Of a DNA stretch of 64,000 nt, positions 2,339-36,581 are shown one piece after another. The stretch comes from a virus. Within the stretch, counting starts at the first letter, position 1. The number at the start of each line of letters is the position of its first letter. Below the pieces are notes generated by a model. The model searched no databases. It worked only from the letters and a program-made list of their open reading frames with translations, and was not told the DNA's origin. The position numbers and the translations under genes are program-made. The DNA is taken from the IMG/VR virus record IMGVR_UViG_3300034104_004745, positions 126,001 through 190,000 of that record, one strand, 5' to 3'.

Positions 2339-3013
2339 TTAATTTTTCTTCTTAACAATCTCATCGATTATACCGTATGCTAATGCATCTTCAGCGGATA
2401 ACCATAAATCTCTCGACGCGTCTTGCATTACTTGTTTGCCGTCTTTACCACAGAAGCCACCTAATAAATCAAAAAGTAAATTATTAAGTTTTTCCCACTC
2501 AACCATATCGATCTTTGCATCTTGGATATTTCCATGAAATCCACCACTAGATTGGTGTAGCATTGTTCTAGAGAATCTAAGCGATCCTCTTTTACCTTTC
2601 GTACCTGCACCCAAAAGGATTGACCCCATTGATGCCGCCATTCCGGTATTGATTGTTCTAATATCAGATGAGATATATTCCATAACATCAACCATAGACA
2701 AACCAGATTTTACTGAACCACCTGGGCTATCAATATGCATAGTAATATCGTTATTATCTAAACTATCCAAAAACATCAACTGTGCTTGAACAACAGTAGA
2801 CATGTGATCATTCACTTCACCAGCTACCCAGATAATTCTTTCCATCATTAATCTACTGAATACATCCATAACAGTCACATTCAATGATCTTTCTTCAAGA
2901 ATATATGGTGTTAAACTGTTCTCAACGTTTTTATTAAAATAATGTAAATTAAGAGAGCTAATCCCTCTGTCTTTGGCATATAGTCCAAAACTTTGTAAGT
3001 CTTTTGGGGTCAT
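2339..3013 (-). CDS. clpP: ClpP-family serine protease
   Basis: A self-compartmentalising serine peptidase of the ClpP/crotonase fold. With the start at 3013 (MTPKDLQSF) it is 224 aa, normal for ClpP. A longer frame from 3118 adds 35 hydrophobic residues and would overlap the divergent exonuclease gene, so I reject it. Catalytic residues are Ser128 in GMAASMGS, His153 in MLHQSSGG and Asp202 in SRDLWLSAEDA, with the HIDSPGGS oxyanion-strand motif at 93-100. No ClpX/ClpA ATPase is encoded here. It could act with a host unfoldase or as a prohead/maturation protease; the window gives no evidence to choose. It is followed by a strong terminator. Confidence 0.9.
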   Translation of the reverse strand: MTPKDLQSFGLYAKDRGISSLNLHYFNKNVENSLTPYILEERSLNVTVMDVFSRLMMERIIWVAGEVNDHMSTVVQAQLMFLDSLDNNDITMHIDSPGGSVKSGLSMVDVMEYISSDIRTINTGMAASMGSILLGAGTKGKRGSLRFSRTMLHQSSGGFHGNIQDAKIDMVEWEKLNNLLFDLLGGFCGKDGKQVMQDASRDLWLSAEDALAYGIIDEIVKKKN

Positions 3014-12718: not shown

Positions 12719-13936
12719 TTATGCTTCAGCCGGCCCACCTGGTCCACCTGTGCAACTATCTGTACCTATGGATATTATAAGACCATTTGAATCTACTCTC
12801 ATGAATTTATATGTTCCACCATCATATAATAAATCCCCATTAGGGTTAGTTGTAGTTGGGGTATTTTGAGCTTGTTGATTTTCAAATTCTGTTATATATG
12901 CCATTCTTGTTACATTACCTAATGACCAAGAACCCTGAACTGTATTTTGTAAATTAGAATCACTGTAAATTGTGGTTACACCAGCCGTTAACATTGTGTC
13001 AGTCGTGTAAAATGGTGAATTAATAAGATAACCTTGTCCACCCGATCCGATACCGTTACAATATGTTGTTGATAAACTACTATCCATCACTTCACCCGCT
13101 CTGTAGTATACGTAAACTGTTGTTGGTGTTACTGTTGGTGTTAACGTCGGTACACCAAGACACTGTATACTTACCTCCCAATAATCGTTCACTTCGTTAG
13201 GTGCTGCTAAAGCCGGCGCTGTTAATGCGTCTATATAATATGTTTTAGTATTATCATACGTGATTGATAATGTTATAGGACCAGTTCCTTCGGTTGGGTA
13301 CCAATAGTCTTGTGAATCATATCCTGAAGAATTACCAAACCATCCTGTACTTTCAAGTACAGTTAACGCTGTTCTAATTGAAATATTATTTGGTCTATCA
13401 TTTGCTGTACAAGTAAAGTTAATTGTTGAGCCATTAGGGACTCCCGTAAAATCTAATTGATTATCAGGGTAGTTATATAAACCTGAACCACTATACTCAC
13501 CCGTTACAGTAGAACTACATCCAGGTAATTGAACTGTTGATGTTGGTGTTGCGGTTAACGTCGGTGTAATGGTTGGTGTTGATGTACCTGTTGGCGTGCT
13601 TGTTGATGTACCTGTTGGTGTTGGTGTTGCACCAATAGTAGACGTTGGTGTTGCTGTACCTGTTGAGGTCGGTGTCGGCGTTGCTCCTGGTAATCCGGTT
13701 ACTGATATACATTGATTGGTACCAGAACAATCACCTCCATCAACTTTAACAAATAAACTAACAGTTCCATCTGGAATCCCAGATAATGTTTTTGGGAAAC
13801 TAGATACTGCTTGTGATGTAGCTAAGCTGGTACAACCACTTCCACAAGAAGATCCTGTACATCCTGATATTGAAACGGTTTGTCCTGTTATCCCATTTCC
13901 TACTGTTCCTAAATTTACTGAAGCGTTAAATGCCAT
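12719..13936 (-). CDS. TPT-linked fibre/adhesin protein, 405 aa
   Basis: Four parts are visible. Residues 1-82 form a Cys-rich beta domain (GCTGSSCGSGCTS). Residues 83-132 are a Thr/Pro/Ser linker built of TPTST-like units. Residues 133-265 are a second domain (PNGSTINFTCTANDRPNNIS...) that could be Ig-like. Residues 270-405 are a C-terminal module ending in CTGGPGG. That module aligns by eye with the end of the 191 aa protein: FYTT...TTIYSDSN against FYST...TTVYDGNQ. It follows an exact TATTTATA box. Probable receptor-binding or virion-decoration protein. Confidence 0.6.
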   Translation of the reverse strand: MAFNASVNLGTVGNGITGQTVSISGCTGSSCGSGCTSLATSQAVSSFPKTLSGIPDGTVSLFVKVDGGDCSGTNQCISVTGLPGATPTPTSTGTATPTSTIGATPTPTGTSTSTPTGTSTPTITPTLTATPTSTVQLPGCSSTVTGEYSGSGLYNYPDNQLDFTGVPNGSTINFTCTANDRPNNISIRTALTVLESTGWFGNSSGYDSQDYWYPTEGTGPITLSITYDNTKTYYIDALTAPALAAPNEVNDYWEVSIQCLGVPTLTPTVTPTTVYVYYRAGEVMDSSLSTTYCNGIGSGGQGYLINSPFYTTDTMLTAGVTTIYSDSNLQNTVQGSWSLGNVTRMAYITEFENQQAQNTPTTTNPNGDLLYDGGTYKFMRVDSNGLIISIGTDSCTGGPGGPAEA

Positions 13937-13967: not shown

Positions 13968-15197
13968 TTAATTTGGTTGTTCAAATTCAGTACATACAAT
14001 TTGGTTACCTGTACAAGGTCCTACTTGCGCAGTACATGGTGAAAATTCATTTTCTCTACAATAATATGTAACTGATTGGCAATTTGCTTGACAAGCTAGC
14101 AACGTTGTGTATAAACCACCTTCGCCCTCAACTATTTCACACGAACCATTATTACAGTTATATGTGTATATAACTTCCGATGTTGATGTTGATGTTGGTG
14201 TTATTGTTGGTGTTGCTGCCCCACATATACCATAATTTGGTGTTTGTGATGTATAACTATCAATTGATACTGTTTCAGCTACACAACTACCTTGACCACA
14301 ATCGACGACTGAATATGTTGTTATATCAACATAATTTGATAAGCTACCTGCTGTTATCGTTATATCATACGTTTGACCGCCACTTGTACCATAACAATAA
14401 TTAATTGTTCCATTTACTCTAACTGTAACATTAACGGATGAAATCGTAGCTAATGTTGCGGTAACTCTTGTTGTGGTAACATTATATGGGCCTTGACCTA
14501 AACAATTTATTTGTGTATAACTTTCAGATTCGGTCATTGTCACACAACCACTAGTTCCACCTTCTGTTGTGGTTGGTGTTGCCGTTACCGTAGGTGTAAT
14601 TGTCGGTGTCGATGTACCAGTTGGTGTTGAAGTTGTTGTTGGGGTACCAGTACTAGTTGGTGTTACCTCGTCAGTACTTGTTGGCGTCGCAGTACTTGTT
14701 GGTGTTGGTGTTACCCCATCAGTACTTGTTGGCGTCGCTGTACTAGTTGGTGTCGCTGTACTAGTTGATGTACCTGTTGGTGTAGGTGTTGGTGTAGATG
14801 TTATAACTTGATCACTAACAGCCGATCCACCACTAAATCTACAATCAACATAACTAGACGTACCACCAGTAAATAAGCAACAGTTTATGCAATTATCATA
14901 AATTTCTTCATGATTTGTGAAGATATTTTCTATCACATAACCTCCAGTAACTGTATCTAAAATTTTAAACCAATATTGTGTGCTATATTGTGCATTAGTA
15001 AAAACAATTGGTGTTGTATTGTAATATGAACCATCAGAACTTGCTTGATATGTCCCATTTGGTAATGTAGATCCCACAGAATATTGCGTATAACCTGTTG
15101 TAACAAAAGGTTCATTACCTGCTGTGGCCCCAATTTTAAAATACAATTTAAATGGGTTTGTAGAAACAATACCTTTTAATTTTAGATTTAATCCCAT
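13968..15197 (-). CDS. TPT-linked Cys-rich fibre/adhesin protein, 409 aa
   Basis: Residues 1-126 form an N-terminal beta domain with a Cys cluster (YDNCINCCLF). Residues 127-210 are TPTST repeats. Residues 211-325 form a domain with Cys-Gly pairs (CLGQGPYNVTTTRV, CYGTSGGQTYDITI). The end carries a short Cys motif, C-NNGSC-EIVEGEGG-LYTTLLACQANC split here, of the CxxGxC...YxTLxxCQxxC kind seen in marine viral proteins. The second half closes with CRENEFSPC and CTGNQIVC. Disulphides are possible only after release from the cytoplasm. Likely a virion surface protein; family unknown. Confidence 0.6.
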   Translation of the reverse strand: MGLNLKLKGIVSTNPFKLYFKIGATAGNEPFVTTGYTQYSVGSTLPNGTYQASSDGSYYNTTPIVFTNAQYSTQYWFKILDTVTGGYVIENIFTNHEEIYDNCINCCLFTGGTSSYVDCRFSGGSAVSDQVITSTPTPTPTGTSTSTATPTSTATPTSTDGVTPTPTSTATPTSTDEVTPTSTGTPTTTSTPTGTSTPTITPTVTATPTTTEGGTSGCVTMTESESYTQINCLGQGPYNVTTTRVTATLATISSVNVTVRVNGTINYCYGTSGGQTYDITITAGSLSNYVDITTYSVVDCGQGSCVAETVSIDSYTSQTPNYGICGAATPTITPTSTSTSEVIYTYNCNNGSCEIVEGEGGLYTTLLACQANCQSVTYYCRENEFSPCTAQVGPCTGNQIVCTEFEQPN

Positions 15198-15919: not shown

Positions 15920-18900
15920 TTAAATTTGATTACCTGGACCACCACCGGTACAATTTGCACAATTAGAATAGATTGACGCATATTGTCCATCTGTTAAATG
16001 AAGAGGATATTGCTCACATGTCGTGCCAACAAAATAATCTATTTGATAACAAACGTTGTTAATCTTAACAGCGTTAAGTCCTGAAGTAAATTGTGACGGT
16101 AATAGATCAGGTGAACTCATTAAAACAGGCGTACCATTATCACATACCAACCCTTGATATGTGTAATAGACTGGCGCATCTGCTAACACTACAATTCCGC
16201 TATTAGTTACACAACCATTAGCATCTGTAACTTCAAGACAATAACCACCAGATGATAATCCCGTAACATCTCTACTAACATTACCAGATACAACATTTGT
16301 ATATGTGGCTATTAATGTACCACCACATGTAGTATATGGCGCTGATTCATCTTCATATAAACGATATGTTTTAGGCCATACCCCACCTGTTGATGAAATG
16401 GTTAAGCTACCACCAGTTGGGTTAGAACATGTTGGTCCTACTTCATTAGTAATTGACGCTGTTTGTGCTGTTGGTTCACTTACATATTCAGCATAAGTTT
16501 GAACACAACCAGCACTATCTTTAACATATATTGTATATGTTCCAGTTGTTAAACTACTAAATGTTTTAGGGAATGCATGATAATTTATACCATCTATTGA
16601 AACTGTATACACACCACTATTACCACCTAATGGTGAAGATGTTGCAATAGAACCATTTGACCCACCATTACATGAAACATTAGAAACGCTTCTTGTACAG
16701 TTTGGTGCTGTTTTACTCATATCAACAGTTATAATACTTGATTCACAACCCGCAGTATCTCTTGATTGGAAAGTATACGATGTAGCCCCTAAGCTGCTGA
16801 ATGTTGCGCTGTTAACCCAAGTACCAGAGTTAATTCTATATTGATACGAACCGTTACCGCCACCAGCAGTTAATGTAACTGAACCATTACTTCCATTATA
16901 ACATGTGGTATATGCTATAGATGTTGTACCTACCGTTACCGCAGATGGTTGTGTCACACTTACTGAATATGTGTTTTCACAACCCGCAGTATCTTTAACA
17001 TAAATTGTATATGCTCCTGCAGATAATGAAGAATATGTTCTAGATGTTGATAATACTTGATATGTACCACCAGCATTTAATTTAGTTGAATATGGTCCAC
17101 CTTGACCACCAGATAAACTAGACACTACGATTGAACCATCACTACCACCATTACATGTTACACTATTTTGTGATACTGTTGCTGTTACTTGTGTTCTGTC
17201 TAAACCAGTTGTACTTGTTATAATACAACCAGCACTATCTTTAATGTAAATTGTATAAACACCATTACTTAAATTACTAAATGTTGTTCCAGCTTGATAG
17301 TTTGTTCCATCTTTTGAATATGTATAAGATCCACTACCACCAGTAGCATTTGATACCGTTATTGAACCATCTGTGCTAGCAACGCAAGTTGGATTAGTTC
17401 TTAATAATGAAGCACCAATATTCGCTGGTTGAGTTACGGTTACAGATGCGCTACCTACTTCATTGTATGAATCTTTAGCATAAATTGTATATGTTCCGGC
17501 TGTTAAACTACCAAATACATTGCTTGCTTGGTAATTTGTGCCATCTTTTGAATATGTGTAATTTGCTGTACCGCCACTAGCATCTGATACTGTAATCGCA
17601 CCATTTGTTCCACCATTACATGTAACGTTAGTTGTTGCGGATGCTGTTACCGAAATTGTTACGTTTGTAATTGTTATTGTTAATGTTTTGTCATATGTTA
17701 ATCCACCAGCATCTGTTGTTCTTACTCTAATTGAGTATGACGATTTGCTTTCGAAATTGAAAACAACAGCAGATCTTAATGATGAACCAGATATACTAAA
17801 GCTAGCATTATCTGGATATGATCCACCATCAACTAATGAATATGTGAATGTGTCACCAGAATCAGGATCAGTACTAGATAATGTACCAATTGTTGTTCCT
17901 GTTGGAACGTTTTCAGATATTGATGATGAGCTTAATGCTAGATTTGTTGGTGCTTCATTAACATTTGTTACAGATACAGTTAATACCCCATCAAATGTTA
18001 ATCCACCAGCATCTGTTGTTCTTACTTTTATTGAGTAAGAAGATTTTGATTCAAAATTAAATACTGCTGCAGATTTTAATACACCACCACTTGTTATTGT
18101 GAAGCTATTATTATCTGGATAATTTGCGGTATCTACTAATGAATATGTGAATGTATCACCAGAATCAACATCTAATGTTGTTACAGTTCCAACAGTTGTT
18201 CCTGTTGCTGAATTTTCTGGTATTGAACCACTAAAGTTTAATCCATAAGGTGTTTCATTAACGTTATTTACATTAATTGTAAATGTTTTGTCATAGAATA
18301 AACCACCATTGTCAGTTGATCTAATTGTAACAGTATAAGAAGTTGCAGATTCATAATTGAATGATTGTGACGTTCTTAAGTTAGCCCCAGAAATATTAAA
18401 TAAGTTACCATTACCTCCAGCTTGAATTGTATATGTGTGTGTGTTTCCTGCATCAGGATCAACACTACTTAATGTACCCACAATTGTATTAATTGCGCTA
18501 TTTTCATTTACGCTATTATTACTTAGTGTAATGTCAGTTGGCGCCGAATTTGTTGGTGTGCTTGTTGATGTCGATGTTGGTGTAAAAGTAGGTGTCGCTG
18601 TAGACGTACTTGTTGGTGTCGTTGTTGGTGTTGGTGTAGCAATTACCGCCACAGTATTAATTACAAATTCACAATTAGGTGTGTAAGTTGAAGTAGGTGT
18701 CGACGTTGTTGTTGGCGTCGCAGTAGGAGTGCCAGTCGATGTTGGTGTACTAGTTGGTGTTTCTGTATTAGTTGGTGTATTGGTTGGTGTTTCTGTTGGT
18801 GTATTAGTCGGCGTATTGGTAGGTGTACCAGTCGGTGTTTCTGTACTAGTTGGTGTTTCTGTTGATGTATTTGTACTTGTAGGTGTACCAGTCGATGTTG

Positions 18901-19531
18901 GTGTCGGTGTTGCAATTATAGCCACAGCAGTGATCACAAATTCACAATTTGGTGTATAAGTTGAAGTCGGTGTTTCTGTGCTAGTTGGTGTTGACGTAGG
19001 GGTATTAGTAGGTGTACCAGTACTAGTCGGTGTTGTAGTTGGTGTTTCTGTTGGTGTATTGGTTGGCGTTTCTGTTGATGTACTAGTTGGTGTTTCTGTT
19101 GGTGTACTAGTTATTGTACTTGTAGGGGTTGGTGTTGCAATTACAGCAATTGTTTCAATTACAAATTCGCAATTTGGTGTATATGTCGATGTTGGCGTTT
19201 CTGTACTAGTTGGTGTATCAGTAGATGTACTAGTAGGTGTCCCAGTCGATGTTGGTGTACTAGTAGGTGTTGTGGTTGGTGTTATAATAGGTATTGAGTA
19301 ATTTATGTCAATAGCACATAAATCATTTCTTAAAATTAATAGATTGGCTAAATCTGGTGTGGATACTAAAACTCCCGGCGCTACACTTAATTCACTAAAA
19401 GTTAAATTTGTTGCTGGATTTCCATTATTAATATTTGTTGCGATTTTTAAAGGATCAACACTGTCATAATAAACTGTATACGGTCCTGGTGATGTACCTC
19501 CTGTAATCTCTATGTAAAAATATCTAGCCAT
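15920..19531 (-). CDS. Giant phage adhesin: TPT linker, cadherin and SprB repeats
   Basis: 1203 aa. Residues 1-80 form an N-terminal domain. Residues 80-329 are TPTST linkers interrupted by three copies of NCEFVI-xx-[V/I]A[V/I]IATPTP. Residues 330-630 are three cadherin-type repeats with NEN, DPD[A/S]G and RTTDAGG calcium-site patterns. Residues 632-1130 are about six SprB-type repeats (CNGGSDGSI...[11 protein letters not shown]...VTQP). The end is a Cys-rich tail finishing CTGGGPG. SprB repeats are known from the Flavobacterium surface gliding adhesin; cadherin repeats mediate Ca-dependent adhesion. No signal peptide, so it is probably a virion fibre rather than a secreted protein. It was probably acquired from a host adhesin. 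Confidence 0.75.
18545..19290 (-). repeat. TPTST-coding repeat tract in the 1203 aa adhesin
   Basis: Degenerate tandem repeats that on the plus strand read as variants of GTTGGTGTTTCTGTACTAGT. They encode TPTSTETPT units and three C-E-FVI cassettes. The antisense strand is also open and Val/Gly-rich. Confidence 0.85.
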
Positions 19532-19544
19532 ATACTATTATATA

Positions 19545-22500
19545 TTAAGGACAAATGTTTTGTATTGCTGTTATTATGTTTGCCCCACTAAATCCAGTTG
19601 TAACCAATCCGTTTGTTCCAGTTGCTAAAGTGTATAAAGCATTATTACTAGTAGTTGTCATTAATAATACTCTAATATTTTGATTATATAAAGGTGTTAT
19701 TAGACTGTTTACAAACGTAACGTCAGTTGAGTTATAAGCATCATCATTACCACTTGGTGTTGCATCAGTTATTAAAATTATTAATTTAGATACCCTAGTT
19801 CTAAATGTTCCAGCAAAATATTCATAACCTGAAATATTATTAGTTGCAACTAAATTGACCCCCATATCACTTGGTTCTGGTATACTTTCACCACTACCTA
19901 AAGGAACCGCACTATTTAATTTATTTAATTGAGTTGTAAATGAGGAAATATTATTTGTACCCATTTTCTCCCAAGCAGTTATCCATTGATATTTGCTATT
20001 AAGACCCGTATTAATAAATCTTTGTGATGATGGTAAAGTTGTATAATTACTATTGTTCCAATAGTTTGAGTTGATTCCGCTAGAATATTCATCAAATGTT
20101 ACTAAACCTAATCTATAATTGTTATTAGATTCTGTTTGTATTGTGTTTGCAATAGACGCAATAGATGATTTTACACCATTAATCGCACTACCCATACTAC
20201 CTGTATAATCAACTAAAAATACAACATCCATACCAGCGTCACACGATGCAGGTTCACCTGGAATTTCACCAATAGTTTCGGTAAATTTAGCCTCAAATGA
20301 ACAATCTGGGGTAATTGTTGAAGTTGGTGTTTCTGTGCTAGTTGGTGTTTCTGTGATGGTCGAAGTACTTGTTGGTGTTGGCGTAGCAATTACAGCTACG
20401 GTATCGATCACGAATTCACAATTAGGTGTTTCTGTACTAGTAGGTGTAATGGTACTAGTTGGTGTTTCCGTACTAGTTGAAGTTGGCGTTGAAGTAATTG
20501 TTGATGTCGGTGTAGGTGTCGCAATTACAGCCACTGTATCGATTACGAAATCACAATTTGGTGTATATGTTGATGTTGGTGTTTCTGTACTAGTTGGTGT
20601 TTCTGTGCTAGTTGGTGTACCAGTAATTGTAGATGTTGATGTCGGTGTAGGTGTTGCTATTACCGCAACAGTGTCAATCACAAATTCACAATTTGGTGTA
20701 TATGTTGATGTTGGTGTTTCTGTACTAGTTGGTGTTTCTGTGCTAGTTGGTGTTTCTGTAATTGTTGAAGTGCTTGTTGGTGTTGGTGTAGCAATTACAG
20801 CCACAGTATCAATAACGAAATCACAATTAAGTGTTTCTGTTGAAGTTGGTGTCGATGTTATTGTCGATGTTGGTGTCGGTGTTGCTATTACGGCTACCAC
20901 ATCAATAACGAAATCACAATTAAGTGTTTCTGTTGAAGTTGGTGTTGTTGTAATAGTAGGTGTTGGTGTAGGTGTCGCAATTACTGCTACTACATCAATA
21001 ACAAAATCGCAACTAGGCGTTTCTGTTGATGTTGGTGTTATTGTTACACTAGGTGTTGGCGTAGCAATTACAGCTACGGTATCAATCACGAAATCACAAT
21101 TAGATGTAATTGTAGATGTTGGTGTTGATGTGCTTGTTGGTGTTGGTGTTGCAATTACTGCCACCGTATCAATTACAAAATCACAACTAGTTGTTTGTGT
21201 TGGTGTTGCTGTACTAGTACTAGTTGGTGTCGGCGTTTCAGTCAACGTCGAAGTGCTACTTGGTGTTGGTGTACTAGTAGGCGTTCCCGTTGGTGTCGAT
21301 GTAATTGTTGGTGTTCCCGTGCTAGTTGGTGTGTTTGTAGGTGTGTTAGTTGGTGATGGTGTTACCACTGGATAATAATCTCCACACACAACTGCAGGGG
21401 TAATTGAACCACACTCAGTTGTATAATTTCTAATAGGATCTTCAATCGCAGTATCACAACACACATCATCAATATAATATTGACTTAAATTAGTGTTAAG
21501 TCTATTAAATTTAGTATATGTATGTTGAGCCAATACTTGAACATTATCGTTACCGTTAAATAAAATTAAATTCTCTGGTTGTGTGCCAGTAACATTAATA
21601 TTATAATAAAGATTGTTCTCACAGTAATTTAAATTAACAGCAACAACTTCTAATAATTCACCCTTTTCTGTAATTAAAAAATCACCAGTATCATAATAAT
21701 CTGATGGATAATAACAACATGGTTCTTCTTGTGTTTCCGGTTTTAATTGTAGAAACTCAGGAGATCTAGAATCAAAGAAATATCCATCTACTTTTGATAC
21801 CCTATATGTGGCCTCATCAATTTCTTTGTTTGTATAGACACGTAATTTTGTTGTAGGTAAAACATCGATAACTACTTGCTGACCATTTGCAGTCATACCA
21901 GTTATTTCACTCTTTTTTACCGAACCTAAACAATCAATATCGTTAATTGTATGTGTTGAATAGTCATATGAAAAAGAATAATCGTTATTTTCACTAGCAT
22001 ATTCAAACATGCTTGATGAAAGTACGGTACATGGTAGATAACTTGCACTTAATATAACATTCCCATTAACCAAATCTTTGGCATCTTTTCTAACAAGAGT
22101 TCCAGCTGCTAAATAGCTAGTAATATTTGCCGGTGTTGTAGATGAATTAATTGTAGCACCACTCACAACAATTACTTTAGTATTGTGTTTTAAACCGTAA
22201 TTGTATGTGTTTCTATATTGTACTTTTGGTACTAATGTATAACCAGTATTAACTACCAAAGGTAAATCCGGAATTTCGGATGGATACTCTATATATCTTA
22301 ATGCCAATCCTTCAATTTTTACTTTTTTATCACAGTTTGCTGCGTCAGTAAAAATTAAATCAATAACCTCATCTTCTCTTACTTTAGTTAATTTAAACTT
22401 ACAATTTTCTCCAACAATTTGGAAGAAACTTGTGTCTGTATATGTTGGGTGATAACCTGTACTAATATTATTACCTGGTGTGCAATTTCTTTGAACATAA

Positions 22501-25500
22501 ACACCCCATCCGCTATCGTTACCAGATTGAACTGTTACACCAGTTACACTGACAATAATATCAGTAGATACTTTGCAAGTTGGGTAACCAGAATAAACAT
22601 CACAAGAAGCATCAAATGATAAATCTAAATGACATTTAGGTTCAGTATATTTGTAATCAACATCAAAATAGAAATCTAAATTATCTTTTACCAAACATTC
22701 ACCAGATGAGTTTGTGTGGGCGATAAACTTAACTTTTTCAATACCATCACTATCTGTGAAAAATTCATGTGATATTAATTGTGTATAACCACTAGTAATT
22801 GCTGTAGTTGGAACATAACTTGGTGCATTAAATGCACTATATTGTACTTCTGTTTGATTAATTTGGTTAACCAATGAAGTTATTGCACTTTTCCAAGCAG
22901 CTTTAATTGTTGTTAAATTTAAATTGATCCAATTTTTATATTCACATATAAGTGGAATCTTTGTTGATGAAGATGTTAGTATAGTACAACTTTCATTTGC
23001 AGTGAAGCCACCACCAAATAAAGTACTACCAGTTAAAATAACTTGCGTTGTTCCACTATAATCAACACCATCAATATCAATATGTAAACTAAATGTTACA
23101 CCGCTAAATTCTATTAATCCTCTTAAATTATCTGGATCACCAACTATTGTCTCAATATCTTCTTCAATAATTGTTTCAAACTCAGGGTATAGGTTTTCAA
23201 CTATTTCTAATGGTTTACATGGTTTTCTATATGAAAACTTAGGTCTACCAAAAATATTATTTTCTATTAAATTTCCACCCATCCATAAGGTTGTTGATGG
23301 AATAATTTGTTCTAAAACATTAGACCAATATGGGCTCATCTGATTAACGAAATCAGATGTTGAAATCATATCATATGTTGTATATCCAGAAGCTGTTAAT
23401 TGATTTAAATAATCTTGATATACATCTTCTAATGTGATATAATTTTTCTTATATTTTATTAAGTTTGAATTAGTAATTTGATTAGAAAAAGTATTTTGTA
23501 GGTATTCAGCAAATGTAAAACCAGTTTGTGGTTCAAGACTATTTGTACCAAAAGTAACTTCTAATTCTCTGGATTTTCTCCAAATATCATAGTTGATTGC
23601 ATTGGCAGCAGAAACAAATACGTTTATATTTTTTCTATTAAGAGTTAAATTAGATAAATTTTCATCTTCTAATATTTGCCCTTGTACGTTATCAATTTCA
23701 CTTTTAATTGTGAAACCATAATCTAATCCAGGTAATGTTCTATAAACATCAAAATAATCCTCACCATATGAATATGGTTTAGATTTTGTTAATAATGTTT
23801 TTGTTCTACCCGTTAAAACTGAACTTTCAGTATCTAACATATCAGACGATCTATGATCTAATGATACATTTGACCAACCAGAACCCATTTGGAAAAATAT
23901 ATTTTCCTGATTAGTTGTTGGCGATTTTGGTAATAATGAAATGTCATTTACAGGGTAATCAGTTAACTGTCTATTTGTTGTTAAACCAGTTAATGATGAT
24001 AATGTGTATGTATATGTGCCACTATTAAATGTCACATTATTATTTACTTCAATATTGTTTAATGTGTTTGTGATATCATCTAAAGTTGATGGTGGCAATG
24101 CACTATTAACTTTATACACAAACTCATCAATTTTAACCATTGGTTCAGGAGCACCTATGAACTTTAAGAAAAATTCAATACTACTTCTGGTTCCCTTTGA
24201 TTTATAAATGAAAGCTAAATTAACTAAAAGTCGTCTATAGAATTCTAATTCAGCATCAACTAAATTCTTACCAATAGATTGTCCATCATAGGTAACTGAA
24301 GATGCATTATAAATTTGTTCTTCTAAAGATTTTTGATCGAATAAATTGATTGTATTTAAACCAAGAGTGTTTGCTAGATTTTTAAGAAAAACATCTGGGA
24401 TGTTATCTATTGCATCATAACTTACATTTCTCATATATGCAATATTGTCAATATATGATTTTACTTTATCAAAGCTTTGTCCATATAATTGAAATATTTT
24501 ATCTATTTTTTGATCTTCGGTGTCAAATTCAAATAACTGAGGAGCAACTAAAAATCTTGTTACTAAGTTAGATTTATAATTGTCAATCTCTGTCGCTAAA
24601 TCATTTAATCTAGTAAGATATTCATCAAACTTTAATCCTGTGATCTGTATGTTGTACCCGTCAGATGATGCTGGCCAATTTACTAATACCGAAACTAACT
24701 CTGTTTTTGTTTCATCTAGACTTGTTTTTGGTACAGTAAATCCTGCTTGATATATTGGGAATGTCTCTCTGTTTAATAATGTTTGCTCAAGATCATCTAA
24801 ACCTAGATAAAACTCTTCAACAACATTATCATTAGGTCTTAAAATAAAACTATCTGAATATGTTGAACCAGTAAACGGTTTTCCGGTAACTGATAATGTA
24901 ATTTGATTGAAACTATTTGGTTCAGTATAATTGCTTACAGAATATTTCTTATCATCAACAATTATAATGTATTTTTTATATGAGGAAAATAAATTTCTGA
25001 TTTTATTTTCAGCATTTAATTCCTCATTTGAGGTAGGTTGTATTAAAGCAACGTCAAACGGATTAAAAAATCTACCCGTTTGAACTGTAAATGTTGTTCT
25101 ATTTGTTGTTGGGTTGTAAGTAATACTTTCTGCAGTATTAGATGTAACCACCGAAAGTGCGTCTTTATCAACTAAAATTCCACCTGGGAAGTTTTTGATA
25201 ATTCTAGCAATCGAAACCCTAATTCTTTCTCTTAAAGAACCAAATAAAGATTTTGATGCGTCTTTTTTATTACTATTAAATCTTACTGGTCTTTTCTTAC
25301 CGTCAGACTGTACAACTGTTGTTGGTACATCTTCTTCTATCTTAAGGTTTTCAAGAGTTATAAAATCTGAAAATGGCGCAGTTTGGAATTTTTTAGAGTC
25401 TTTTTCTGGTATGGTCCTATCTATCGCAAAGTTCGTATTAGTCAATTGACTAGTACCGTCAGTAATTTGTCTTCCAACAATACTGTCGCTAAACGTTTCA

Positions 25501-25541
25501 AAACCACTAGCTGCTTGACTCGGAACTTTTCTTTTTGCCAT
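19545..25541 (-). CDS. Baseplate-type protein with TPT repeats and C-terminal vWA domain
   Basis: 1998 aa. Residues 1 to about 1385 look like a baseplate or tail structural protein, with an N-terminal Q/S/T-rich start and helical regions such as EQIYNASSVTYDGQSIGKN. Residues 1390-1745 are TPTST linkers with eight copies of C[D/E]FVID[T/V]VAVIATPTP. Residues 1764-1998 form a von Willebrand A domain with the MIDAS motif DYTGSMG, the downstream LVTFDEYSSG and ILITDATPSG, and the helices expected around them. vWA domains bind ligands through a divalent metal. It shares a TAATG stop-start overlap with the upstream 305 aa gene, hence coupled translation. Confidence 0.75.
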   Translation of the reverse strand: MAKRKVPSQAASGFETFSDSIVGRQITDGTSQLTNTNFAIDRTIPEKDSKKFQTAPFSDFITLENLKIEEDVPTTVVQSDGKKRPVRFNSNKKDASKSLFGSLRERIRVSIARIIKNFPGGILVDKDALSVVTSNTAESITYNPTTNRTTFTVQTGRFFNPFDVALIQPTSNEELNAENKIRNLFSSYKKYIIIVDDKKYSVSNYTEPNSFNQITLSVTGKPFTGSTYSDSFILRPNDNVVEEFYLGLDDLEQTLLNRETFPIYQAGFTVPKTSLDETKTELVSVLVNWPASSDGYNIQITGLKFDEYLTRLNDLATEIDNYKSNLVTRFLVAPQLFEFDTEDQKIDKIFQLYGQSFDKVKSYIDNIAYMRNVSYDAIDNIPDVFLKNLANTLGLNTINLFDQKSLEEQIYNASSVTYDGQSIGKNLVDAELEFYRRLLVNLAFIYKSKGTRSSIEFFLKFIGAPEPMVKIDEFVYKVNSALPPSTLDDITNTLNNIEVNNNVTFNSGTYTYTLSSLTGLTTNRQLTDYPVNDISLLPKSPTTNQENIFFQMGSGWSNVSLDHRSSDMLDTESSVLTGRTKTLLTKSKPYSYGEDYFDVYRTLPGLDYGFTIKSEIDNVQGQILEDENLSNLTLNRKNINVFVSAANAINYDIWRKSRELEVTFGTNSLEPQTGFTFAEYLQNTFSNQITNSNLIKYKKNYITLEDVYQDYLNQLTASGYTTYDMISTSDFVNQMSPYWSNVLEQIIPSTTLWMGGNLIENNIFGRPKFSYRKPCKPLEIVENLYPEFETIIEEDIETIVGDPDNLRGLIEFSGVTFSLHIDIDGVDYSGTTQVILTGSTLFGGGFTANESCTILTSSSTKIPLICEYKNWINLNLTTIKAAWKSAITSLVNQINQTEVQYSAFNAPSYVPTTAITSGYTQLISHEFFTDSDGIEKVKFIAHTNSSGECLVKDNLDFYFDVDYKYTEPKCHLDLSFDASCDVYSGYPTCKVSTDIIVSVTGVTVQSGNDSGWGVYVQRNCTPGNNISTGYHPTYTDTSFFQIVGENCKFKLTKVREDEVIDLIFTDAANCDKKVKIEGLALRYIEYPSEIPDLPLVVNTGYTLVPKVQYRNTYNYGLKHNTKVIVVSGATINSSTTPANITSYLAAGTLVRKDAKDLVNGNVILSASYLPCTVLSSSMFEYASENNDYSFSYDYSTHTINDIDCLGSVKKSEITGMTANGQQVVIDVLPTTKLRVYTNKEIDEATYRVSKVDGYFFDSRSPEFLQLKPETQEEPCCYYPSDYYDTGDFLITEKGELLEVVAVNLNYCENNLYYNINVTGTQPENLILFNGNDNVQVLAQHTYTKFNRLNTNLSQYYIDDVCCDTAIEDPIRNYTTECGSITPAVVCGDYYPVVTPSPTNTPTNTPTSTGTPTITSTPTGTPTSTPTPSSTSTLTETPTPTSTSTATPTQTTSCDFVIDTVAVIATPTPTSTSTPTSTITSNCDFVIDTVAVIATPTPSVTITPTSTETPSCDFVIDVVAVIATPTPTPTITTTPTSTETLNCDFVIDVVAVIATPTPTSTITSTPTSTETLNCDFVIDTVAVIATPTPTSTSTITETPTSTETPTSTETPTSTYTPNCEFVIDTVAVIATPTPTSTSTITGTPTSTETPTSTETPTSTYTPNCDFVIDTVAVIATPTPTSTITSTPTSTSTETPTSTITPTSTETPNCEFVIDTVAVIATPTPTSTSTITETPTSTETPTSTITPDCSFEAKFTETIGEIPGEPASCDAGMDVVFLVDYTGSMGSAINGVKSSIASIANTIQTESNNNYRLGLVTFDEYSSGINSNYWNNSNYTTLPSSQRFINTGLNSKYQWITAWEKMGTNNISSFTTQLNKLNSAVPLGSGESIPEPSDMGVNLVATNNISGYEYFAGTFRTRVSKLIILITDATPSGNDDAYNSTDVTFVNSLITPLYNQNIRVLLMTTTSNNALYTLATGTNGLVTTGFSGANIITAIQNICP
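20305..21375 (-). repeat. TPTST / C[DE]FVI cassette repeat array
   Basis: Eight successive units of roughly 29-46 codons. Each begins with Cys-[Asp/Glu]-Phe-Val-Ile and AVIATPTP and then has a variable TPTST spacer. A ninth, degenerate start (DCSFEAKF) borders the vWA domain. Nucleotide units diverge mainly at third positions. Confidence 0.9.
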
Positions 25542-34224: not shown

Positions 34225-36057
34225 TTAATATGTAGTCGTGCCTAATGTTTTTACCCTTATTTTTATATCTTTCTGAGGGAACCTGATTTGAAATATTTGG
34301 TTAGCCTTCATAAACACTGTCATATCGCTTTGTAGAATCTCTTTTGTGGCTGTATCTTTATATGATTGTGACACTTGTGAAGATGAATATTCACCACCGA
34401 TCTTGTTATAAGCTCTAACTTCTATCACGTTAACAACACCAGGAACGTTATTTACATCTTTCATTAACTCACCAACAAATAATGGATCACCCATTTTTCT
34501 TTTATCAATTGAAAAATACTCTGTTGTTGCTGTAATTACATCTCTAATAACTTCTCCTTGATTTTGATTTTTATCTAAAAGCAAGTCAATCTCCAATCCT
34601 AAATCGATAACCTCACCACTAACAATATCAATATAGTCGTTAATCATTCTATATTGTGAAAGATAATTCAAAATGTTTTGTTTTAATGTGTTAGATACTA
34701 CACTTGTTAAATTACCGCTTTGGTCATATGAAAGTAATTTAACTCTTACTTTATTGTCTTCCTCCATTACGTTTACTTTAGCCGGCGCACCATATGTAGC
34801 TGGCATTGTTTCAATCATCGATTTGTAATCATTTAATGTTACAGCTCTGTTTTGTGCAGCAAAATTGTACGATACCATCGCTCTAAGTTCTTCTACTGTT
34901 GGTTGATCTGAACCACCAACTGCAGGTGTAATGTTTGTCACATTTAAAGATTGTGAAACTTGACTATTTGTATTTGAATTTGGGCCTGTTATAATAAAAT
35001 CAGAGTTTTCTACGTTACTAATAACACCAACCCCTACATTACTTTCTTTACCGCCGCCAATTCTATATTTTATAAACAACGTACTATCTTGTTTTGGTAT
35101 TGAACCTAATGATAGATTGTTCAAATATGAAGATAAATTTACTTTTAACTTATCTGTAATGTAATTATCCAAATTATCTAATGGGTCTACATTACCAGAA
35201 CCAAAAGTCAAAAAGAAATATCCTTCTGGTGTATATTCAGTGATAAATTTATTTTGTACTGGCACATATTCACCAGCTTTAAAATTAGCCCTATCAGAAA
35301 CTGAAGTTGTACTTGACACAAATACTTTATCTTGTACTAATGATTGAACTTCATACCATTTATTTGGATCGCCAATAAATTCACTGTATGCTGGATTACC
35401 AACAAATGATGTACCTTCTTTGTGAATTACTGCTGAAACACCTAAAACGTTTCTTTCTGGTAAAAATATCTTTAAGAATGGTCTTTGTTCTTGTTGTGTA
35501 ATAACCTTTCTAAATATTTTTGTTACCCCATTAACAACCGCTTCTCTTTTTACTATTGTATATGAAATTAAGTTGTTATTGTTATCAGTATTAGGTAATT
35601 TAAGTCTATTAGGCTCACCTTTACTATTAAATGGGTTTGAAAAATCAATATCTTCTATTGTTTCAAAAATCTGACCTCCACCCGAAACTTGAGCACCTGC
35701 TCTTAAAATACCTTCGTATCTATCATCATCTTTATCCCCCTTAACCGGAACATTAATACTAAAATCACATAAAGCAACTGAAGGTCTTTGACCTGGAATT
35801 CTTATACCATATGTTTTTGCAATATGAAATAAAGATTGTCTTTTTTGAGCAAAATCTAACATGGTTTCTTGCCAAACCCTATCAATATGAAAATGAAGGT
35901 TATCTGAAACCGCCGCATTTAAATCTAATAATACAGAATAAATTGACGCATCATTTGTATTCTGTATAATATCTGGATAATATTCTTTGGTTAAATTTAC
36001 TAGGTCTTGTCTTAACCCAGCAAAATCTCTATTAGTATATGCTATCTTTTTGCTCAT
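34225..36057 (-). CDS. 6: Baseplate wedge protein, gp6/J-like
   Basis: 610 aa. The N-terminus MSKKIAYTNRDFAGLRQDLV, with LTKEYYPDIIQNTNDASIYSVLLDLNAAVSDNLHFHIDR following, is the typical opening of T4 gp6 / baseplate_J-type wedge proteins. These form the ring of the baseplate around the hub. Later parts include LNDYKSMIETMPATYGAPAKVNVM and EVIDLGLEIDLLL, also typical of that family's C-terminal half. T4 gp6 is about 660 aa, so the length fits. It directly follows the gp25-like gene (1-base gap), the order seen in many contractile tails. Confidence 0.88.
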   Translation of the reverse strand: MSKKIAYTNRDFAGLRQDLVNLTKEYYPDIIQNTNDASIYSVLLDLNAAVSDNLHFHIDRVWQETMLDFAQKRQSLFHIAKTYGIRIPGQRPSVALCDFSINVPVKGDKDDDRYEGILRAGAQVSGGGQIFETIEDIDFSNPFNSKGEPNRLKLPNTDNNNNLISYTIVKREAVVNGVTKIFRKVITQQEQRPFLKIFLPERNVLGVSAVIHKEGTSFVGNPAYSEFIGDPNKWYEVQSLVQDKVFVSSTTSVSDRANFKAGEYVPVQNKFITEYTPEGYFFLTFGSGNVDPLDNLDNYITDKLKVNLSSYLNNLSLGSIPKQDSTLFIKYRIGGGKESNVGVGVISNVENSDFIITGPNSNTNSQVSQSLNVTNITPAVGGSDQPTVEELRAMVSYNFAAQNRAVTLNDYKSMIETMPATYGAPAKVNVMEEDNKVRVKLLSYDQSGNLTSVVSNTLKQNILNYLSQYRMINDYIDIVSGEVIDLGLEIDLLLDKNQNQGEVIRDVITATTEYFSIDKRKMGDPLFVGELMKDVNNVPGVVNVIEVRAYNKIGGEYSSSQVSQSYKDTATKEILQSDMTVFMKANQIFQIRFPQKDIKIRVKTLGTTTY

Positions 36058-36058
36058 A

Positions 36059-36514
36059 TTATATGTTAATAATTACAAAGTCAGAACTAGAAAAAGTTCC
36101 ATTATTTGTTGTGTAATCAATTCTTATTTTTGCTGTGTATGGCTTTGTTGACCCATCACCAGTTCTAAATAATCTGATGTCCTCATCCTCACTAATACTT
36201 GACGCTCCGTCTTCCGGATCAATATCGGGATTCGTTATTTTTATTGAGTTTATTTCTAAATTAGGTATGTATATTTTTACTGTTTCTCTGATCTCATCTT
36301 CAATACTAGAATATGTAATTGAATCATTTAAATCAAAAATAAATTCGTATAGTCTAGTTCCAAAATCTGGTAAAAAATATCTACTACCCTTTCTTGTCAA
36401 TAATAAATGAATAAGATTAGCTCTAATCTCTTCATCCTTATCAAGGGTCATTCTAGTATAATCACCTAGGGTGCTATTTCTAAAAGGAAAATCTATGCCA
36501 TATTTAGTAACCAT
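36059..36514 (-). CDS. 25: Baseplate wedge protein gp25 (GPW_gp25 family)
   Basis: 151 aa from ATG 36514 (MVTKYGIDFPFRNSTLG). An upstream ATG at 36565 would add a hydrophobic leader lying in the terminator and is rejected. The family core is clear: DKDEEIRANLIHLLLTRKGS, YFLPDFGTRLYEFIFDLND, IEDEIRETVKIYIPNLEI. gp25-like proteins form the conserved sheath-initiating rim of the wedge in T4, P2 and contractile injection systems. It is the first gene after the nrdA terminator, with TATTTAT boxes in the leader, so it starts the virion operon. Confidence 0.9.
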   Translation of the reverse strand: MVTKYGIDFPFRNSTLGDYTRMTLDKDEEIRANLIHLLLTRKGSRYFLPDFGTRLYEFIFDLNDSITYSSIEDEIRETVKIYIPNLEINSIKITNPDIDPEDGASSISEDEDIRLFRTGDGSTKPYTAKIRIDYTTNNGTFSSSDFVIINI

Positions 36515-36544
36515 AACAATAAATATAAACAATACTAAAATGGA

Positions 36545-36552
36545 TATAAATA
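36545..36552 (-). promoter_or_regulatory. TATTTATA box upstream of gp25
   Basis: Exact minus-strand TATTTATA, 30 bases before ATG 36514, just after the T run of the terminator. A second near match (TATTTATT) lies three bases before the ATG. Confidence 0.4.
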
Positions 36553-36558
36553 AAAAAA

Positions 36559-36581
36559 GCGACACTTTTTAAAAGTGCCGC
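36559..36581 (-). terminator. Intrinsic terminator after nrdA
   Basis: Stem GCGGCAC.TTTT / AAAA.GTGTCGC with one mismatch, followed by seven T on the minus strand. It closes the SSB-to-nrdA unit. Confidence 0.8.

Follow-up and report, generated by a model that had tools for sequence, protein, structure and literature searches.

A selectively constrained Cys-x-Phe strand motif recurs along Thr/Pro-rich stalks of two putative tail proteins in an uncultured T4-like phage

Two adjacent genes of an uncultured T4-like phage encode proteins with Thr/Pro-rich stalks that carry 11 copies of one short cassette, and the amino acid word of this cassette is conserved although the codons that spell it are not. 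Judged by sequence comparison, the word is one variant among several of a module found throughout a clade. We tentatively propose that the cassettes are β-strand "stickers" that, strung on flexible spacers, hold stalks together side by side, a reading that we consider quite possible but somewhat short of probable. All coordinates refer to a 64,000-nucleotide stretch (here called the window) from an uncultured virus whose record is 198,825 bases long.

RESULTS

Genomic setting and domain structure of the array proteins

The gene content of the window is T4-like and includes genes for a sheath, gp25-like and gp6-like baseplate wedge proteins, gp32, UvsX, and ribonucleotide reductase. The sheath gene, which lies near the genes for the array proteins, matches PHROG 23 (E = 1.2e-64), as expected of a T4-like myovirus baseplate/tail locus. 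The gp6-like gene (positions 34225 to 36057, minus strand; PHROG 219 and 6, E = 1.9e-19 and 2.3e-17) is upstream of the array proteins and places the cassettes in this locus, and it is adjoined by the gp25-like gene (36059 to 36565, minus strand; PHROG 261, E = 3.9e-16). The nearest named relatives of the gp6-like gene are in Flavobacterium phage immuto (28%) and Microcystis phage Mel-JY01 (25%). In these two phages and in an uncultured huge phage that is also among the nearest gp6-like relatives, no TPT proteins were found in that locus.

The larger array protein, of 1998 amino acids (19545 to 25541, minus strand), is encoded downstream of the two baseplate wedge genes and consists of an anchor (residues 1 to ~1384), a Thr/Pro stalk with eight cassettes (~1385 to 1742), and a von Willebrand A (vWA)-type head (~1744 to 1998). 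The head matches Pfam VWA (PF00092) at residues 1772 to 1819 with E = 1.3e-4 and 22.6 bits, which is just under the curated cut-off of 23.8, and contains DYTGSMGS, of the MIDAS form DxSGS/DxTGS. When the anchor (~1380 residues) was compared with the gpI-like family Tail_P2_I (PF09684), 1 of 11 members matched, at E = 0.057 only, and the AlphaFold2 model of the anchor is poor.

The smaller array protein, of 1203 amino acids (15920 to 19531, minus strand), begins with a short N-terminal domain, followed by a stalk that carries three cassettes and then by three cadherin stretches and SprB repeats. It alone of the two matches Pfam Cadherin (PF00028; E = 1.2e-29, 103 bits) and SprB (PF13573; E = 5e-29, 100 bits), both above the gathering score, and it also matches PHROG 26672, annotated "virion structural protein" (E = 1.5e-30). 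The domains that it shares with these families are in its cadherin/SprB part (residues 603 to 701 for PHROG 26672; residues 433 and beyond for Pfam) and do not include the cassette. Based on the tail/baseplate locus and the PHROG 26672 match, we infer that both array proteins are virion proteins. SprB repeats are typical of Bacteroidota gliding adhesins, and their presence together with cadherin domains in a phage protein (15920 to 18541, minus strand) suggests a Bacteroidota host for this phage.

Eleven cassettes on variable spacers

A preliminary description of this DNA had noted 11 copies of C[DE]FVIxx[VI]A[VI]IATPTP, eight in the larger protein and three in the smaller one, each with a single Cys, and our analysis confirmed this as 11 exact matches to C[DE]FVI...A[VI]IATPTP. 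By pattern match, cassettes 1 to 8 are at 21138 to 21185, 21051 to 21098, 20964 to 21011, 20871 to 20918, 20778 to 20825, 20643 to 20690, 20508 to 20555, and 20373 to 20420 and together span residues 1453 to 1723 of the 1998-amino-acid protein; cassettes 9 to 11 are at 19124 to 19171, 18899 to 18946, and 18626 to 18673 and span residues 121 to 302 of the 1203-amino-acid protein (all on the minus strand). A degenerate DNA pattern applied across the window recovered exactly these 11, with a mean of 0.00 in 100 dinucleotide shuffles. The same description gave the spacer as TPTST. A Thr/Pro linker is indeed present, but it is not a fixed TPTST; (Thr-X)n tracts that vary in length from 13 to 75 amino acids separate the strands. 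A 346-amino-acid open reading frame antisense to the array (20335 to 21375, plus strand) was rejected as a gene, since it is an open shadow of the repeats, whose Thr, Pro, Ser, and Val codons give no stops in the reverse complement.

Selection on the amino acid word

All 11 cassettes are distinct at the DNA level, and their amino acid identity is high (mean of 0.91 for pairs within the same protein). The identical-codon fraction among the eight copies of the larger protein is 0.52, compared with 0.513 ± 0.046 for independent draws from the phage's own codon usage (z = 0.4). The dN/dS over all 11 window cassettes is 0.073, and between copies in related phages it ranges from 0.04 to 0.24, with dS near saturation. 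The combination of near-fixed amino acids with chance-level codons means that selection at the protein level maintains the word. Cassettes 6 and 7 are a striking example: the 65 linker bases preceding them are identical, yet the strands themselves have only 18% synonymous-codon identity. Recent tandem DNA duplication was therefore rejected as the explanation for the identical window copies, since their codons agree only at chance level, although some DNA memory between copies remains in two related phages, L063 and G001 (z = 3.2 and 2.2). Random low complexity was likewise rejected, both by the shuffles and by the dN/dS values, which upholds the earlier view of the strand as a constrained unit. 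The neutral decay that would have told against that view, in the form of stop codons or frameshifts, is absent among close relatives, where the copies sit in open frames.

The cassette family in related phages

Searching IMG/VR with the anchor gave 29 relatives. Three of these phages (L010, L013, and L016) have the window word, while three others whose anchors are ~88 to 89% identical to that of the window (L029, L031, and L033) carry CTFDVDVDIIIPTPTP instead. The strand had been called nearly invariant; this holds within the window phage and its nearest kin and fails for the close relatives that use CTFDVDVDIIIPTPTP. The word is C[LT]FDVDVDV[IL][FY]PTPTP in L063 and CDFDVDLDIVIITPTP in another relative, and an SprB-like protein of L054 carries a strand of another kind, CELGG[SN]A[ET]Y[IV]AP.

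In total, we collected 401 distinct copies from uncultured phages, and a 10-residue version of the pattern matched 49 stretches. The commonest form is C-D-F-D-[VI]-D-V-D-[IVL]-[VA]-TPTP, in which Asp at positions 2, 4, 6, and 8 alternates with hydrophobic residues, making the strand amphipathic. Nearly all copies have C1 and F3, with [VI] at position 5 and hydrophobic residues at positions 7 and 9; because C, F, and [VI] were required by the search pattern, the choice of loci is biased toward them, though not every copy counted within these loci is, and F3 is partly preselected. The core preceding TPTP is 10 residues long in 277 copies and 12 in 99 (together 376 of 401) and has an odd length in only 14 of the 401, and the Cys-to-Cys spacing is odd in 300 of 331 cases. 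Besides strand register, the even Cys-to-TPTP length could partly reflect gain and loss of dipeptide units. The spacing between cassettes ranges from 21 to more than 100 residues, most commonly 29, and second proteins with a single cassette are frequent.

The array occurs on most branches of the anchor tree, and it is missing from the anchor of the L042/L045/L055 group (L055 is truncated). Absence of the strand from close relatives that keep the TPT linkers had been named as a refuting outcome, and it did not occur: close relatives keep a strand in the same place. More distant relatives with ~48% identical anchors have huge TPT/TPS tracts of up to 1,424 residues with almost no strand. The longest of these, an uninterrupted T/P/S tract without any cassette, is in the gene next to the L042 anchor. 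Thus, the stalk can do without the strand in these distant relatives. The L042 protein that includes this 1,424-residue tract (positions 14333 to 22543 of L042's own sequence) has 2737 amino acids and 281 TPT-type motifs, followed by small Cys-rich domains.

Word matching between the two proteins of one phage

In ten nonredundant phages that have both proteins, cassettes of the second protein scored a mean of 0.725 against the array of their own phage and 0.503 against those of other phages. None of 20,000 permutations reached the observed value and the own array was the best match in 8 of 10 phages, by a statistic that ignores phylogeny. Codon identity between the cassettes of the two proteins is near chance in most phages and is clearly higher in L063, G001, and L097. 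In L010 and L013, within-phage coherence is no higher than similarity to the window. Next to the cassette, the window and L063 have conserved cadherin domains (64% overall and visibly higher directly past the cassette), yet the cassette word differs between these two phages. Word matching with mostly unshared codons is concerted evolution at the protein level. The matching may have been selected for, or it may stem from old co-inheritance and purifying selection, two origins that the permutation does not separate; part of the shared wording may come from old common descent plus purifying selection.

Copy number change, block exchange, and different heads

A strain whose anchor DNA is 99.76% identical to that of the window (L015) lacks exactly the unit that carries cassette 6, a difference for which short-read assembly of repeats could be misleading. 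Along its first 2,400 bases, the anchor DNA of L029 mostly matches that of the window at ~90% identity; at base 3000 this identity is down to 77%, and that of L013 there climbs from ~80% to 90%. From this mosaic pattern, the array and the end of the anchor appear to travel as blocks. The window vWA head (VVFLVDYTGSMGS, 19548 to 20312) aligns poorly with the WFDDSGSMN head of L010, L013, L033, and L063, and heads thus seem to have been swapped at the array. PHROG 15511 (function unknown) matches the WFDDSGSMN vWA head region at the C termini of the L033 and L063 proteins (~residues 1680 to 2020) and has a weak match to one stretch of the L010 array. In the window, L033, and L063, a single chain includes both the anchor and the vWA head, and in L010 and L013 these are two separate chains, each with an array.

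Database searches

Pfam, PHROGs, and NCBIfam have nothing over the cassette of the 1998-amino-acid protein, and a PDB search with the cassette gave a best E value of 0.88. In 50,697 phage records, searches for cultured relatives gave zero matches to the cassette, to the anchor, and to the head found in the relatives. A cellular origin was rejected, as a 12-residue pattern matched only twice, each time singly, in 84,980 species; one match (L072) is in a 61-amino-acid end fragment, and the other (L073) has no TPT-rich or matching frame. No description of the cassette was found in the open-access papers searched.

DISCUSSION

The arrangement of the cassettes is that of stickers and spacers, with conserved short motifs separated by variable tracts whose flexibility is indicated by their Thr/Pro content. 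In the mechanism that we tentatively favor, each cassette would be a short amphipathic β-strand sticker and each (Thr-X)n tract a flexible spacer, and the stalk would tether the vWA adhesin-type head to the anchor protein of the baseplate locus. Strands of parallel chains and of the neighboring cadherin/SprB protein would pair via the hydrophobic C1-F3-[VI]5-x7-x9 face, and the conserved Cys could lock a strand pair. Through many such weak contacts, several long stalks would be bundled and yet stay long and flexible. We infer the strand fold, the lateral pairing, the role of the Cys, and the presence of these proteins in the virion. Indirect support for association comes from the within-phage word matching and from the chains that are split in some phages and fused in others, in the manner of Rosetta-stone proteins. 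The strand-free T/P/S tracts of relatives with ~48% identical anchors count against this mechanism, as do two strand-free TPT-linker proteins encoded in the window. An AlphaFold2 model of the array renders every cassette as a strand and places hairpins in short linkers, at a pLDDT of ~50 to 57, which is too low to be relied upon, and Foldseek searches with the AlphaFold2 models gave no PDB match at E < 0.001.

Instead of pairing with one another, the strands could each be held in a groove of another protein, as with dimeric hub proteins that bind short β-strand motifs or in donor-strand complementation, and the array would then be a multivalent landing strip. A shared, coevolving partner would fit the short motif, the strict register, and the covariation of the word equally well, and the related C-x-F strand found at head and domain termini (e.g., DCSFEAKF and CDCTFEGGATEFF) means that a matching groove could exist. 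However, we identified no such partner, and the acid face opposite the hydrophobic face in most copies also suits self-pairing; we regard docking as unlikely. It is also possible that the strands do no more than protect the Thr/Pro tract against collapse or proteolysis and that arrays persist since recombination lets heads be swapped and stalk length be tuned. This is consistent with the one unit by which the window exceeds its 99.8% identical strain, with the mosaic block exchange at the anchor C terminus, and with a window vWA head unlike that of its relatives. Nevertheless, a passive bead would not be expected to show dN/dS values as low as 0.04 to 0.24 and nearly fixed C, F, [VI], and D positions, and the strand DNA of cassettes 6 and 7 is far less alike than their linker DNA, indicating that strands are not recombination homology. 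We therefore think such a passive role unlikely.

Two further readings give the strand a stiffening function. The consecutive cassettes of one chain might stack as the sheet of an intrachain β-solenoid, a stiff rod in which the linkers are turns. Although the low-confidence AlphaFold2 strands and hairpins and the commonest spacing of 29 residues would suit a solenoid, it is made improbable by spacings that run from 21 to more than 100 residues, by the pLDDT of ~50 to 57, and by second proteins that often have a single cassette. That an Asp face binds Ca2+ and thereby stiffens the stalk is suggested by the commonest word, which has Asp at every even position from 2 to 8, but it is highly improbable given that the window word has Val at positions 4 and 8 and that Gly, Val, or Asn is found there elsewhere. 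D[ST]x is the Bacteroidetes O-glycosylation motif; it occurs in the window word (DTV) and is missing from DVDVD words, and O-glycosylation was dropped as an explanation.

An extension of the sticker mechanism is that the word is a phage-specific address code, by which self-recognition would sort the fibre proteins of a phage during assembly, including in mixed infections. Each lineage would have one word across all of its stalk proteins, only strands with the same word would pair, and the proteins would switch words jointly, without DNA copying. We consider this extension distinctly doubtful.

If the sticker mechanism is true, a widespread group of uncultured T4-like phages makes very long, flexible adhesin stalks by combining β-strand stickers with Thr/Pro spacers, and such fibres would differ in design from the rigid trimeric ones investigated to date. 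In trimeric phage and adenovirus fibre shafts, such as those with a triple β-spiral and the T4 long tail fibre, the repeats are continuous and closely spaced. Like the cassettes, these are hydrophobic strands that recur along a viral stalk linking an anchor to a head; however, the cassette strands are islands in low-complexity linkers of 13 to 75 amino acids and have no sequence match to such shafts. LC8-type systems are associated with the idea of a rope ladder. Multivalent LC8-type motifs (PMC6607443) are, like the cassettes, short strands spaced along a disordered chain, but the cassette motif is unrelated to them, and we found no LC8-like partner. The general associative-polymer model of sticker-and-spacer proteins (e.g., PMC6822780) likewise has conserved short interaction motifs repeated along flexible low-complexity spacers; the cassettes differ from it in their location in a phage tail locus, in their phage-specific β-strand word, and in that their association is conjectural. 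The tandem repeats of Borg elements (PMC9879509) are fast-changing arrays that create disordered regions, as the cassette arrays do, but those repeats are described as recently formed and rapidly evolving, whereas the cassettes have randomized codons and a fixed amino acid word. The cassette is compact enough to lend itself to tests with synthetic peptides, and the fact that the genes of one genome have the word in common but mostly not the codons lets one ask whether the matching is selected or inherited.

The window also encodes, downstream of the array proteins, two proteins (12719 to 13936 and 13968 to 15197, minus strand) that have TPT linkers without the cassette. One of them contains DCRFSGGSAVSDQVITSTPTPTPTG, which resembles the CELGG-type strand of L054 and L068.
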